A program made the translations under genes and the position numbers. Of a stretch of 13,444 bases of DNA, positions 1,287 through 6,464 are shown one piece after another. The stretch's first letter is position 1; each line of letters starts with the position of its first letter. The DNA is from Deltaproteobacteria bacterium. Lineage in GTDB: Bacteria; Desulfobacterota; DSM-4660; Desulfatiglandales; Desulfatiglandaceae. The stretch covers positions 1 through 13,444 of the forward strand of contig JAFCZI010000024.1 of assembly GCA_019314425.1 (NCBI GenBank). Reading direction: 5' to 3'. The notes below the pieces were generated by a model. It was not told the DNA's origin. It made no database searches and saw nothing but the letters and a program-made list of their open reading frames with translations.

Positions 1287-1979
1287 ATGAATATGACATC
1301 GGAAGTGGCGGGGATGGTTTGTGTGGCCAAGGGGCCCAAAAACGGCCCGGCGCCCATTCCTGAAGAAGGGAAATGGGTTCAGGCCAAAGAGATTAAAGAT
1401 ATTTCCGGTTTGACCCACGGGGTCGGTTGGTGCGCACCCCAGCAGGGGGCAAGCAAACTGACCCTGAATGTGAAAAACGGTATCATTGAGGAAGCCCTGG
1501 TGGAAACCCTCGGGTGTACGGGCATGACCCATTCTGCGGCCATGGCGGCGGAAATCCTTCCCGGGAAAACCATTCTGGAGGCCCTGAATACGGATCTCGT
1601 GTGCGACGCCATCAACGTGGCCATGCGGGAACTCTTTCTGCAAATTGTCTATGGAAGGACTCAGACGGCATTCTCCGAAGGGGGGCTTCCCATCGGCGCG
1701 GGCCTCGAAGACCTGGGAAAAGGCTTTCGAAGTGTCGTGGGCACCATGTACGGCACAAATGCCAAAGGGGCACGATACCTTGAAATGGCCGAAGGATACG
1801 TCAAGAGAATCGGCCTGGACGAAAACGATGAGATCATCGGGTACGAATTCATTCAGCTGGGCACCATGATGGATCTGATCGAAAAAGGTATGGATGCGGG
1901 CGAAGCCCTCAAAAAGGCCACCGGAACCTACGGCCGGTTTCAGGATGCCGTTCAAACCATCAATCCGAGACACCAATAG
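1287..1979 (+). CDS. NifU/IscU-like iron-sulfur cluster assembly scaffold protein paired with GGGtGRT
   Basis: This 230-aa protein resembles the NifU N-terminal (IscU-like) scaffold fold, on which Fe-S clusters are built or held. Three cysteines sit in scaffold-like positions: Cys49 (GVGWCAPQQG), Cys77 (ETLGCTGMTHSAAMAAE) and Cys106 (DLVCDAIN). The segment between Cys77 and Cys106, with LPGKTILEA, is the typical post-cysteine helix and loop. The protein is longer than housekeeping IscU (about 130 aa), with an N-terminal extension holding Cys12 and a C-terminal helical region. The start at 1287 is chosen because AGGAGG lies 7 bases upstream; an in-frame upstream start would read through the repeat element. 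The stop is 12 bp before the GGGtGRT gene, so the two are co-transcribed. These families are known to be neighbours in other anaerobes. Whether it really carries a cluster, and for which target, is unknown. Confidence 0.75.
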   Translation: MNMTSEVAGMVCVAKGPKNGPAPIPEEGKWVQAKEIKDISGLTHGVGWCAPQQGASKLTLNVKNGIIEEALVETLGCTGMTHSAAMAAEILPGKTILEALNTDLVCDAINVAMRELFLQIVYGRTQTAFSEGGLPIGAGLEDLGKGFRSVVGTMYGTNAKGARYLEMAEGYVKRIGLDENDEIIGYEFIQLGTMMDLIEKGMDAGEALKKATGTYGRFQDAVQTINPRHQ

Positions 1980-1991
1980 GGGGGTCAAACA

Positions 1992-2990
1992 ATGGCACTT
2001 TTTGAAGGATATGACAGACGGATCAAACAGATCACCTCTACCCTTGAACAATACGGCATCGCCTCCCTGGAAGAGGCCGATGCGATCTGCAAGGAAAAGG
2101 GCCTGGATGTGTACCGGATCGTAAAAGAGGTTCAACCCATCTGTTTTGATAACGCCTGCTGGGCATACCTGTTGGGGGCGGCCATCGCCATCAAAAAAGG
2201 GCAGGTGCGAGCCTATGATATCGCGGAAACCCTTGGGATCGGATTGCAGGCCTTCTGCATTCCCGGGTCCGTTGCAGACGACCGGAAGGTGGGCCTGGGA
2301 CACGGCAACCTGGCGGCCATGCTACTCAAGGAGGAAACACAATGTTTCGCTTTTGTGGCGGGCCATGAGTCTTTTGCTGCGGCTGAAGGGGCCATTGGTC
2401 TTGCCAATTCCGCCAACAAGGCCCGGGAAAAACCGTTAAAGGTCATCTTAAACGGCCTGGGGAAAGACGCAGCCCACATCATTTCGCGCATCAACGGGTT
2501 TACCCATGTGATCACAAAATTCGACTACAAAACCGGAGCGCTTGAAATTGTCAAGGAAACGCCCTATTCCACCGCCGAACGGGCCAAAGTGAAGTGCTAC
2601 GGGGCCGATGACGTGCGGGAAGGGGTGGCCATCAATCACCATGAGGGGGTGGATGTGTCCATCACGGGAAACTCCACCAACCCCACCCGGTTCCAACACC
2701 CGGTGGCCGGCACCTACAAAAAAGAATGTCAGTTGAAAGGCAAAAAGTATTTTTCAGTGGCCTCGGGCGGCGGCACGGGACGGACCCTTCATCCGGATAA
2801 CATGGGCGCCGGCCCCGCCTCCTACGGGATGACCGATACCATGGGCAGAATGCATTCGGATGCGCAGTTCGCCGGTTCTTCCTCAGTTCCCGCCCACGTG
2901 GAGATGATGGGTTTCATCGGCATGGGAAACAACCCCATGGTGGGGGCTTCCGTAGCCGTGGCCGTGGCCGTGGAACAGGCCATGAAATAA
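1992..2990 (+). CDS. GGGtGRT family protein
   Basis: The 332-aa product carries the motif that names the family, SGGGTGRTLHPDN, with GGGTGRT at residues 259-265. The family is conserved, mainly in anaerobic bacteria and archaea, and has no assigned biochemical role that I know of. Other visible features are a glycine-rich segment around residues 92-110 (PGSVADDRKVGLGHGN), a His pair (INHHEGVDV, about 214-222), and seven cysteines at 33, 51, 56, 89, 118, 202 and 246. C51 and C56 are close together (ICFDNAC). The C terminus is small and hydrophobic (GASVAVAVAVEQAMK). No signal peptide or membrane segment is seen, so it is probably cytoplasmic. A G-rich run 5-10 bases before the ATG could serve as ribosome site. 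It lies 12 bp after the NifU-like gene, which suggests it uses, carries or helps make an Fe-S species; that link is inference from context. Confidence 0.85.
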   Translation: MALFEGYDRRIKQITSTLEQYGIASLEEADAICKEKGLDVYRIVKEVQPICFDNACWAYLLGAAIAIKKGQVRAYDIAETLGIGLQAFCIPGSVADDRKVGLGHGNLAAMLLKEETQCFAFVAGHESFAAAEGAIGLANSANKAREKPLKVILNGLGKDAAHIISRINGFTHVITKFDYKTGALEIVKETPYSTAERAKVKCYGADDVREGVAINHHEGVDVSITGNSTNPTRFQHPVAGTYKKECQLKGKKYFSVASGGGTGRTLHPDNMGAGPASYGMTDTMGRMHSDAQFAGSSSVPAHVEMMGFIGMGNNPMVGASVAVAVAVEQAMK

Positions 2991-4656: not shown

Positions 4657-4700
4657 ATGGCGGTCTCCTTTTTCAGAATGCGGGGACATTCGGTCTATTT

Positions 4701-4731
4701 AGTGTCTGAACGGCTTTTTCGTTCAGGCACT
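4701..4731. repeat. 31-bp hairpin element with AGTG/CACT ends
   Basis: AGTGTCTGAACG (4701-4712) pairs with CGTTCAGGCACT (4720-4731) around a GCTTTTT loop; one pair is a G-T wobble or mismatch and the stem gains a T-A pair outside. ATTT occurs directly on both sides (4697-4700 and 4732-4735), which could be a short target duplication or chance. The ends resemble the termini of the 145-bp repeats (AGTGTCCG... and ...GGGCACT). It lies between queF and the leader of the divergent aminotransferase. A role as terminator is unlikely because no gene ends here. Confidence 0.55.
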
Positions 4732-4815
4732 ATTTAATTGGGCGGGCACACAGGCCTCGCTATCCATACCCTATCTTCACGGAAAAGCCAATGCCAATTC
4801 ATTTTCACAAAAAAG

Positions 4816-4826
4816 GTGATTATCAC
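4816..4826. promoter_or_regulatory. Perfect 11-bp inverted repeat, possible operator
   Basis: GTGAT-T-ATCAC is a perfect palindrome embedded in A-rich sequence, 10 bases upstream of the -35 box proposed for the aminotransferase leader. The half-site spacing (GTGA-N3-TCAC) is too short for a standard Crp/Fnr site (N6). Regulator unknown. The rest of 4733-4835 shows no gene or other recognisable signal. Confidence 0.3.
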
Positions 4827-4835
4827 AAAAAAACC

Positions 4836-4864
4836 TTGAATTGTTTTCTAAAGCATGTCATAAG
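4836..4864 (+). promoter_or_regulatory. Candidate promoter for the aminotransferase leader transcript
   Basis: TTGAAT (4836-4841) and CATAAG (4859-4864) are separated by 17 bases. The -10 matches consensus at four of six positions. Initiation near 4871 would give a leader of about 280 nt containing the Ala/Val-rich ORF and both attenuator hairpins. Confidence 0.4.
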
Positions 4865-4954
4865 GGGTATTTCAATTGGATGAGACTTAGAGGGATTGAA
4901 AGGATTAGCGACGTGTTTTCTTTTCGTAACCAACAGATTATCGGTGGATTCCAC

Positions 4955-5029
4955 ATGTCCGACGAGGTGGCATCAGCCGCTGCGGTAGCTGCTGAGCCTG
5001 TGGTTCTGGGAGGACCGTCGATGGCATAA
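4955..5029 (+). CDS. Ala/Val-rich 24-codon leader peptide (attenuator sensor)
   Basis: ATG at 4955 follows GGTGGA by 6 bases and opens a 24-residue ORF ending TAA at 5027-5029. Seven residues are Ala and four are Val. The core SAAAVAAEPVVL (codons 7-18) packs six Ala and Val codons in a row, using several different Ala codons (GCC, GCT, GCG; GCA just before). Composition like this, in a tiny ORF before a biosynthetic gene and ahead of overlapping hairpins, is typical of the leader peptides of ilvB, leu or trp operons, where ribosome stalling reads charged-tRNA supply. The frame also extends upstream to an ATG at 4880, but that has no ribosome site and would sit almost at the proposed transcript start. 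GTGGA-T-TCCAC (4944-4954) overlaps the ribosome site. The stop codon lies in the loop of a small hairpin (GATGG-CATAAA-CCATC, 5020-5035). No peptide-family match is claimed; a small bioactive peptide is the alternative. Confidence 0.6.
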   Translation: MSDEVASAAAVAAEPVVLGGPSMA

Positions 5030-5065
5030 ACCATCAACAAAACCAACCAGGGTTGCAGGCGACTC

Positions 5066-5111
5066 GCGGCCCTTTTCTTGAGGGGCTGCTTGAATTTGCG
5101 GCCCTTTTTTT
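5066..5111 (+). promoter_or_regulatory. Transcription attenuator: mutually exclusive antiterminator and terminator hairpins
   Basis: The segment GCGGCCCTT occurs twice, at 5066-5074 (A) and 5098-5106 (C), on either side of AGGGGCTGC at 5081-5089 (B). B can pair over 9 bp with A (loop TTCTTG) or over 9 bp with C (loop of 8 nt), but not both. The B:C hairpin runs into a T-run (5105-5111) and is a textbook intrinsic terminator; A:B is the competing antiterminator. The leader ORF stops 36 bases before A. Within the leader, GCCTG-TGGTT (4996-5005) can pair with AACCA (5045-5049) and CAGGC (5056-5060), a possible 1:2 hairpin next to A. All pairings were read by eye; energies were not computed. Confidence 0.65.
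5081..5111 (+). terminator. Intrinsic terminator (B:C hairpin) before the aminotransferase gene
   Basis: AGGGGCTGC (5081-5089) pairs with GCGGCCCTT (5098-5106), mostly G-C with two G-T wobbles, followed directly by T residues to 5111. It stands 42 bases before the aminotransferase ATG, so termination here would silence that gene. No gene other than the small leader ORF ends upstream of it. Confidence 0.65.
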
Positions 5112-5153
5112 ATAGACTGAAGGCGTTTTTTTAAGCAGGAGGAGAAATTATTT

Positions 5154-6464
5154 ATGCGAACCGACATCGTTCACATCGGCGCAGGCGAACTGACCTATGA
5201 AATTCGAGAGATCATGCAGTTGGTGGAAAAACTGAATGGCATGGGCATGAAAATCACCCTGGAAAACATTGGAGATCCTGTGGCAAAGGGTGAAAAAATC
5301 CCCGATTGGCTGAAAAGCATCATTGCGGATCTGGCCATGGAGGACGATTCGTACGCCTACAGCGCCACTTTGGGCGAGGTAGAAACGCGGAAATACCTGG
5401 CCGCACTGACCAACCGAACAAGCGGCGTTCACCTGAAAGAGCAAGATATTATTTTCTTTAACGGTTTAGGCGATGCCATCACCAAAATATATGGGTTTCT
5501 GCGTCGTACCGCCCGCGTCATCACCCCGACACCCACATATACAACCCACTCCTCCTCGGAAGCGGCCCATGCAGGATCCCCGCCCTTGTGTTATCCGCTC
5601 GATCCACACAATCGGTGGTATCCGGATGTGGCGGAATTGAGGCGACGGGTCAAATACAACCCCGCAGTGGCCGGGATCCTGATCATTAATCCCGACAATC
5701 CCACGGGAATGGTGTATCCGGAGAGCATGCTGGAAGAGATCGTTTCCATTGCGCGGGATTTTGATCTTTTTATCATCGCGGACGAAATCTATCTGAATCT
5801 CGCCTATAACGGTCACAAAGGCAAATCTCTGTCGGAAATTATCGGCAATGTCCCGGCCATTTCCATGAAAGGCATTTCCAAGGAAGTTCCCTGGCCGGGA
5901 AGTCGTTGCGGATGGATTGAGGTTTATAACGCGGATCGAGACCCCATGTTCGCCAACTACATCAAAAGCATCATCAATGCGAAAATGGTTGAGGTATGTT
6001 CCACAACGCTTCCGCAAAAGGCCATCCCCAGGGTTTTTGAACACCCCGCCTACGTGGATCATCTCATAAAACGCCGCAAGCGCTATGAACGTTTCTCAAA
6101 AATCGCTTACCAAAAATTGAACGGGATTCCCGGCATCATGGTCAACCAGACCAATGGCGCTTTTTATATGACCGTGGTTTTTGAAGAAGGAATGATAAAC
6201 CGAAAACAAAAATTGACCATTGCCGATCCCGAAGTCCGCAAGCTCATAGAAAGCTTAACCGCAGAAGACAAAAAAATGCAGTTGGACAAGCGTTTTGTCT
6301 ATTATCTGCTGGGGGCCACGGGCATCTGCGTCGTTCCCCTGACCTCTTTCAGCTCTGACCTGCAGGGATTCCGGGTGACCCTGCTGGAAACCGACGAAGC
6401 AAAATTCAGGGAAACATTCGATGCCCTTTCTGACAACATCAATCAGTATCTGGCGTCGGCATAA
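5154..6464 (+). CDS. PLP-dependent aminotransferase, fold type I (AlaA/AvtA-like)
   Basis: The 436-aa product is a class I/II aminotransferase, cytoplasmic, transferring an amino group between an amino acid and a keto acid through pyridoxal phosphate. Diagnostic residues are present: NPDNPTG (179-185), Asp210 and Tyr213 in IADEIYLNLAY, Lys243 in GISKEVPWPGSRCGW as the Schiff-base lysine with Arg251 for phosphate, and Arg407 in GFRVTLLE as the carboxylate-binding arginine. The SK-x5-GSRCGW arrangement and the length suggest the alanine/valine-type (AlaA, AvtA) group, but substrate cannot be fixed from sequence. The region between about 340 and 385 (a Lys-rich insert before YYLLGATGICVVPL) is longer than in E. 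coli-type enzymes. The ATG has GGAGGAG about 10 bases upstream. It lies behind an attenuator with an Ala/Val-rich leader, which points to alanine or branched-chain metabolism. It converges on glgB with 52 bp between stops. Confidence 0.85.
   Translation: MRTDIVHIGAGELTYEIREIMQLVEKLNGMGMKITLENIGDPVAKGEKIPDWLKSIIADLAMEDDSYAYSATLGEVETRKYLAALTNRTSGVHLKEQDIIFFNGLGDAITKIYGFLRRTARVITPTPTYTTHSSSEAAHAGSPPLCYPLDPHNRWYPDVAELRRRVKYNPAVAGILIINPDNPTGMVYPESMLEEIVSIARDFDLFIIADEIYLNLAYNGHKGKSLSEIIGNVPAISMKGISKEVPWPGSRCGWIEVYNADRDPMFANYIKSIINAKMVEVCSTTLPQKAIPRVFEHPAYVDHLIKRRKRYERFSKIAYQKLNGIPGIMVNQTNGAFYMTVVFEEGMINRKQKLTIADPEVRKLIESLTAEDKKMQLDKRFVYYLLGATGICVVPLTSFSSDLQGFRVTLLETDEAKFRETFDALSDNINQYLASA

Follow-up and report, generated by a model that had tools for sequence, protein, structure and literature searches.

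A short Ala-rich open reading frame (ORF) followed by repeated, mutually complementary sequences lies immediately upstream of an aminotransferase gene in the window, by which we mean the whole 13,444-nucleotide stretch of DNA analyzed here (G000:C314, from a genome of 2.8 Mb in 475 contigs, 80% complete). This arrangement raises the question of whether translation of the ORF controls transcription of the gene and, if so, which amino acid is sensed. A first-pass annotation of the same DNA had proposed a ribosome-mediated attenuator responding to alanine or valine.

A leader ORF and five pairing segments before a PRK06855 transaminase gene

The gene at 5154–6464 (forward strand, like all leader features below) encodes a 436-residue PLP aminotransferase of the PRK06855 family, scoring 707.8 bits with NCBIfam model NF005334, above the curated cut-off of 443. 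The second-best model, alanine aminotransferase PRK08363, gives 171.5 bits, far under its cut-off of 534. By sequence comparison the nearest solved chains are Pyrococcus furiosus 1XI9, a putative transaminase according to its deposition, and 4CVQ, deposited under the name of the E. coli glutamate-pyruvate aminotransferase AlaA. The enzyme is AlaA-like by these nearest solved sequences, and it probably makes alanine. The nearest family-matched ORFs on both sides, encoding QueF and an M48 peptidase on the 5′ side and glycogen-type enzymes on the 3′ side, are on the opposite strand, so the leader appears to control one gene only. A sigma-70 scan of 4690–5160 found no promoter. There is a 14-pair hairpin with a T-rich tail at 4700–4732, just beyond the start of the QueF ORF. 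Elsewhere in the window, a weakly NifU-like protein followed by a GGGtGRT-family protein forms an apparent pair at 1290–2990 (forward strand), and a weak match to the c-di-GMP-I-GGC riboswitch at 2300–2414 (reverse strand; 19.7 bits against a gathering threshold of 59) lies opposite coding DNA and is probably due to chance.

The leader ORF (4955–5029, stop codon TAA at 5027–5029) consists of 24 codons, 7 for Ala and 4 for Val, exactly as first annotated, and encodes MSDEVASAAAVAAEPVVLGGPSMA. Its putative sensing codons, GCA TCA GCC GCT GCG GTA GCT GCT at 4970–4993, include six for Ala among eight, and were assigned by the Ala-rich leader found in orthologs. The ribosome site previously noted for this ORF is present 5′ of the ATG at 4955 but is weak, and a better one, AAAGGA, is located 8 nt upstream of an in-frame GTG at 4913. 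The motif ahead of the in-frame GTG is AAAGGA in L002, GAAGGGA in L003, and ATAGGG in L004, with L005 differing by an indel. Judging from these motifs, and from counterparts of the longer frame in L003 and L004, the true start may be GTG 4913, which would give a leader of 38 codons (4913–5029).

Downstream of the Ala codons lie five segments, in the order 1-2-3-4-5, and each is complementary to the one after it. Segment 1 (4996–5009), the 5′ arm of a predicted antiterminator, lies within the ORF and can form a 14-bp helix with segment 2 (5047–5060; −17.7 kcal/mol). Segment 2, whose assignment comes from the helix energies and the alignments of orthologs, can pair instead with segment 3 (5066–5075; −14.2 kcal/mol) to give terminator 1 at 5049–5073, which is followed by TTTTCTT and has a scored stem of −11.4 kcal/mol. 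Segments 3 and 4 (5080–5089), placed by helix energies and a terminator scan, can pair with each other (−16.8 kcal/mol), and segment 4 can pair equally well with segment 5 (5098–5107; −16.8 kcal/mol) to form terminator 2 at 5080–5107, detected by both the scan and our detector. The T-run after segment 5 extends to 5111, so that T-runs follow both the 2:3 and the 4:5 helix. A stock terminator scan lists 5066–5089 and 5080–5107. Of the two intrinsic terminators that the custom detector finds between the leader ORF and the gene, the stock scan therefore lists the second alone.

Segments 3, 4, and 5 correspond to the repeats A, B, and C of the first-pass annotation, all of which were found: GCGGCCCTT at 5066, AGGGGCTGC at 5081, and a second GCGGCCCTT at 5098. 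The identical energies of 3:4 and 4:5 bear out its proposal that B can pair with either A or C. Its account of the anatomy holds for these three repeats and the T-run but overlooked segment 1, inside the ORF, and the 2:3 terminator at 5049–5073. The A:B helix, which it took to be the antiterminator, is a predicted pairing that would act as a secondary antiterminator once 1:2 has taken segment 2; the decisive helix would be 1:2.

The fold of 4950–5160 is modestly stable compared with shuffled sequences (z −1.79; 9 of 200 shuffles fold equally well). Downstream of a ribosome stalled at the sensing codons, the RNA is predicted to fold as 1:2 plus 3:4. Downstream of a ribosome at the stop codon, the lowest-energy fold is not 2:3 plus 4:5 but 2:5 around 3:4, which likewise ends at the second T-run. 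The stop codon lies 17 nt past segment 1, a borderline distance.

Recurrence, codon content, and covariation of orthologous leaders

Upstream DNA of orthologous genes was collected from relatives, from contigs of named genomes (the best 80 of 514), and from a sample of the phylum in which 82 of 395 genomes were above the family cut-off. L106 and L130 were dropped for want of a gene start, and L038, L185, and L186 were counted despite short upstream DNA, giving 167 regions. These were searched with a custom detector that looks for a small ORF ending downstream of a segment able to pair with the 5′ arm of a terminator, with the added condition that no fewer than 5 of 12 codons encode Ala. An Ala-rich leader with both competing helices was found in 63 of the 167 (60 distinct leaders): 9/14 from relatives, 34/79 contig loci, and 20/74 phylum loci; in the other 104 regions it was not detected. 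At least 7 Ala are present in 52 of the 63. With the same detector and Ala condition, 2360 control stretches taken from elsewhere in the fetched loci gave only 4 matches, one of them the window's own leader in the duplicate locus L001, and 1260 shuffled sequences gave 2. Without the Ala condition 69/167 regions pass, and Ala is the commonest run residue in 63 of these 69, the Ala-richest candidate ORF having been chosen for each locus. The recurrence of the Ala run and the alternative helices among Desulfobacterota orthologs thus supports what had been proposed from the window alone.

The leaders cluster on a quick tree of 122 enzymes, from which L142–L186 were excluded because only gene starts had been fetched. 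They are present in 33 of 33 rows of one clade, 20 of 23 rows of the window's clade, and 6 of 8 rows of a third, and in none of the 51 rows of another clade or of the remaining 7. Seven changes of label suffice on this tree, the three labels being taken together, compared with a mean of 49.7 when labels are shuffled. L005, whose shortened run has at most three Ala in a row and falls below the threshold, was labeled as leader-bearing. In the window's clade, no leader was detected at L041 and L073, and the upstream DNA of L038 extends for just 167 nt.

The 63 leaders, which were selected for Ala, encode 628 Ala among 1870 residues in their last 30 codons, followed by Arg (149), Gly (112), and Ser (107), with Val at 83, and in 61 of them Ala is the commonest residue of this region. 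In the Ala-richest 12-codon windows, picked for their Ala content, the Ala codons are GCG (149), GCA (137), GCC (106), and GCT (93). The use of all four codons suggests selection on the amino acid rather than on one DNA repeat. Of the two amino acids first suggested to be sensed, Ala is therefore retained by the orthologs and Val is not. The position of the run is also consistent: a median of 43 nt separates the first Ala codon of the Ala-richest 12-codon window from segment 1, which ends a median of 9 nt before the stop codon and within 18 nt of it in 53 of the 63 leaders. As a separate observation, clade-B leaders (e.g., L049:2299–2442) have a near-invariant CGA-GC step, encoding Arg-Ala, ahead of the Ala run. 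In these leaders the Arg codon is CGA in 40 of 47 cases when Ala follows and in 8 of 95 otherwise; the step is a candidate pause signal, slow codon, or RNA-pairing element.

To follow the helices across orthologs, leaders of two clades were aligned separately by sequence rather than by fitting to structure, and compared with shuffles that leave relatedness in place. Clade B leaders (41) have one terminator, mostly of the GGCCATGGGC type, and both alternative helices covary. In alignment A2, which contains 41 of 43 clade-B leaders (L062 and L075 are out), the 2:3 helix is 96.9% paired and 8 of its 12 pairs have changed on both sides, as many as in none of 500 shuffles. Pairing in the 1:2 helix amounts to 79.0%, and 10 of its 13 pairs have changed on both sides (7/500 shuffles as high), with a covariation score reached by 0/500; its further pair types are not above shuffles (71/500), and its outer three pairs fail in about half of the rows.

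Clade A has two detected terminators in 17 of 20 leaders; in L009 and L010 a single one was detected near the ORF, and in L044 just the second. Alignment A1 comprises 18 of the 20 rows, without the single-terminator L009 and L010 and with L005 although it is below threshold; L162, a copy of L046, is a 21st clade member outside the alignment. In these 18 leaders the read-through state (1:2 plus 3:4) is 96.6% paired, and 4 of 23 pairs have changed on both sides (15/500 shuffles as high). The terminator state (2:3 plus 4:5) is 93.3% paired, and its 5 two-sided pairs of 21 are not above chance (119/500 shuffles as high). Counted as individual alignment cells changed on both sides, the two states beat nearly all shuffles, which did as well in 3/500 and 2/500 cases, respectively. 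Paired cells of single helices amount to 96.0% for 1:2, 97.4% for 3:4, and 92.6% for 4:5. When the structures were slid along the alignment, at most 55.3% (read-through state) and 65.6% (terminator state) of cells paired, a comparison that favors the test structures because each was drawn from one row of its alignment (L035 or L049). The clade-A helices are nearly always paired, yet vary less than those of clade B.

Proposed mechanism and competing explanations

These features lead us to consider it highly probable that the leader works as a ribosome-mediated transcription attenuator, with charged tRNA-Ala as the signal sensed and an alanine transaminase as the target. The ortholog comparison backs this core proposal of the first-pass annotation, Ala codons before an alanine-type transaminase included. 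RNA polymerase would transcribe the leader while a ribosome translates the small ORF. When Ala-tRNA is scarce, the ribosome would wait at the Ala codons at 4970–4993, upstream of segment 1. With segment 1 free, 1:2 and 3:4 could form, leaving segment 5 without a partner, and transcription would read through into the transaminase gene. When Ala-tRNA is plentiful, the ribosome would run through segment 1 to the stop codon and block its pairing while segments 2 and 3 are being made. With segment 1 masked, 2:3 would form terminator 1, and 4:5, or 2:5 around 3:4, would form terminator 2. The ribosome would thus act on segment 1 within the ORF, with 3:4 as a secondary antiterminator after 1:2 has captured segment 2. 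A ribosome at the stop codon would cover, or would just have passed, segment 1. In the window, with the stop codon 17 nt past segment 1, a ribosome there would barely touch the segment, so masking must rely on timing. Since a stalled ribosome would leave segment 1 free, an untranslated leader should read through. An alanine dehydrogenase is also encoded in the genome, over its family cut-off, and counts against the attenuator reading.

The simplest competing account is that the terminators form a constitutive pair allowing partial read-through, and that the Ala-rich ORF arises by chance from GC-rich stems. Ala codons are indeed GC-rich, the stems repeat GCGGCC-like words, and there are few two-sided changes in clade A. 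This is hard to reconcile with the occurrence of the combination in 63/167 upstream regions against 4/2360 control stretches and 2/1260 shuffles, with the use of all four Ala codons, and with the covariation in clade B of the 1:2 helix, which a plain terminator does not need; we regard it as very improbable. Little more can be said for sensing of valine or branched-chain supply ahead of an AvtA-like enzyme, to which we assign a similarly slight probability. The window leader does have 4 Val codons, and PAVL or PVVL follows the run in many clade-A leaders, but Val accounts for 83 of the 1870 residues in the last 30 codons against 628 for Ala, and the clade-A PAVL codons overlie segment 1, whose sequence is constrained by pairing. 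In principle, alternative hairpins in any leader could belong to a riboswitch or T-box. Here the ORF explains the conservation, and a search of Rfam 15, including its T-box and amino-acid leader models, gave no match in the leader up to an E-value of 1 and no family at gathering threshold in 20 related loci, so that such an element is extremely improbable.

A closer competitor is an arrest peptide, in which the peptide sequence itself (Arg-Ala-x-x-Ala-Ala and so on in clade B) would stall the ribosome, perhaps through a small molecule, irrespective of tRNA-Ala charging. The retention of the Arg-Ala step in clade B and its preference for CGA would fit such a peptide. The step is missing, however, from the window leader and most clade-A leaders, the leaders of a second transaminase family described below have the Ala run and not the Arg-Ala motif, and in the same lineages leaders built alike, with Leu, Trp, Lys, and Phe/Tyr runs, stand before genes that match the run. 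We consider an arrest peptide improbable and return to charged tRNA-Ala as the likely signal.

The E. coli trp, his, leu, and ilv leaders combine a short ORF containing a run of codons for the product, alternative hairpins, and an intrinsic terminator, and the leader studied here shares this layout, alanine being the probable product. Stalling in E. coli trp covers segment 1 and so frees segment 2, whereas in our proposal segment 1 stays free when the ribosome stalls. We know of no ribosome-mediated attenuator for alanine, and none was found in the open-licence PMC literature searched, in agreement with the earlier remark that no well-established alanine-sensing example was known. The proposed logic matches that described for the leader of mycobacterial ilvB1, in which a ribosome at the stop codon of the branched-chain amino acid uORF masks antiterminator RNA, giving the terminator, and a stall at the sensing codons gives the antiterminator (PMC13236596). 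Masking at the stop codon and stalling at the sensing codons would have the same outcomes here, and the differences are the alanine run, the AlaA-like transaminase target, and the tandem terminators of clade A. The mechanism is of a known kind; what is new, as far as we have seen, is its alanine specificity, its targets, and the chain of five segments. If correct, it would extend classic attenuation to alanine and explain how many Desulfobacterota may regulate alanine synthesis. Leader codons would predict the product, providing a substrate probe for generically named transaminases, and the chain, with its five segments and two terminators, offers a design that can be tested.

A second transaminase family and leaders with other codon runs

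A model built from clade-B leaders (R1) was run on 390 genomes. All 19 hits of at least 53 bits precede PRK06855 genes and are mostly training rows, as are most of the R1 and R2 matches before such genes generally. A second TRANSAMINASE emerged from a weaker R1 match, L256, where the leader MMIPVVLLAAAAAFRSAWVPVGV precedes an aminotransferase gene. The best NCBIfam model for this Ala-led enzyme (L256/L257) is alanine transaminase PRK08175 (AlaC), with 503 bits, under the cut-off of 647, followed by LL-diaminopimelate aminotransferase models with 457 bits. Within the same order, 11 of 39 genomes have orthologs of 76–100% identity together with the upstream region, and the Ala leader is present in all 11 (10 found by script and L263 after re-orienting); a twelfth genome, G468, has a C-terminal piece only. 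Model R3, made from ten of these Ala leaders, added two more, L295 (four consecutive Ala) and L296, and also recovered a leader outside the model, L294 of G265. Alignment A3 contains 10 of the 11 leaders (L269 is out).

Ala runs therefore precede two distantly related transaminases. The second-family leaders (L259–L269, L295, and L296) share with the window leader the Ala run and competing helices; the six leaders displayed also have a second hairpin, followed by a T-run. They differ in the distantly related enzyme, in stem words of the ACGCCATGGGCTG type, and in a first hairpin that has no clear T-run in L260 and L262. The leader itself suggests that the second-family enzyme would make alanine. 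The Ala leader was found in none of the 19 paralogs examined among those 51–54% identical to the Ala-led enzyme (L270–L288). These had been taken as a DapL-like control of different function, a use we dropped because the five tested, scored as fragments cut at the match, reach 616–639 bits with the PRK08175 model against 503 for the Ala-led enzyme. All that follows from them is that one paralog has the leader, and their better fit to the alanine transaminase model makes the substrate of the Ala-led enzyme uncertain. The order thus has two AlaC-like paralogs, with the leader on the divergent one (L259–L269) and not on the one nearer the model (L270–L288).

Among the model matches listed outside PRK06855, seven were printed and 40 more fetched, several of the 40 having no clear codon run. 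Leaders of like design in the same lineages have Leu runs before leuA (L213, L227), Trp runs before trpE (L220, L226), a Lys run before dapA (L225, leader DKKKGKKQEVKK, with a gene product passing the dapA cut-off), and Phe/Tyr runs before genes for DAHP synthase (L244), shikimate kinase (L239), an aminotransferase (L218), and IOR alpha (L252). NCBIfam models were run on ten downstream genes, and the names are those of the best model for each: L213, L225, L244, and L218 pass its cut-off, and L220, L226, L227, L239, and L252 are below it, four of them shortened by the end of the stretch and L239 just below. As these sister leaders were picked through a model match, they show that the design recurs, not how frequent it is. 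R1 also produced numerous short, partial matches, and one full-length match, at L216, resembles an ordinary terminator behind the end of a gene, so a full-length match alone is no proof.

The window's own genus has a Trp leader, L316 (G003:C305:35308–35481), in which a tandem pair of hairpins, each with a T-run, precedes an apparent DAHP synthase gene, and similar Trp leaders at L309–L312 and L315, their genes judged by eye. Like the window leader, L316 has a codon run followed by two tandem T-run hairpins; it differs in its Trp codons and in preceding an aromatic-pathway gene, identified by eye from the N-terminus.

Taken together, we suggest tentatively, and as a proposal with somewhat less than an even chance of being right, that Desulfobacterota use one modular attenuator, with a 1-2-3 core of the GGCCATGGGC or GCCCATGGCC-T type whose codon run has been swapped for Ala, Trp, Leu, Lys, or Phe/Tyr. 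Two distantly related transaminases would each have acquired alanine sensing on their own, so that the divergent AlaC-like enzyme would likewise act on alanine, and in some branches the core would have been doubled to the five-segment chain with two terminators.

Several further leaders were observed alongside these. Lys-rich leaders with a like terminator precede dapA-like genes at L225 and L237 (the latter judged by eye), and their codon runs make them a candidate lysine ribosomal attenuator. Phe-rich leaders precede shikimate kinase-like genes at L239, L241, and L245. At L210 (G335:C65), the leader MTANQSRAYLYYYYYYTKRRGLLMD, with a Tyr run, precedes a gene that by eye appears to encode a metallo-beta-lactamase-fold protein.
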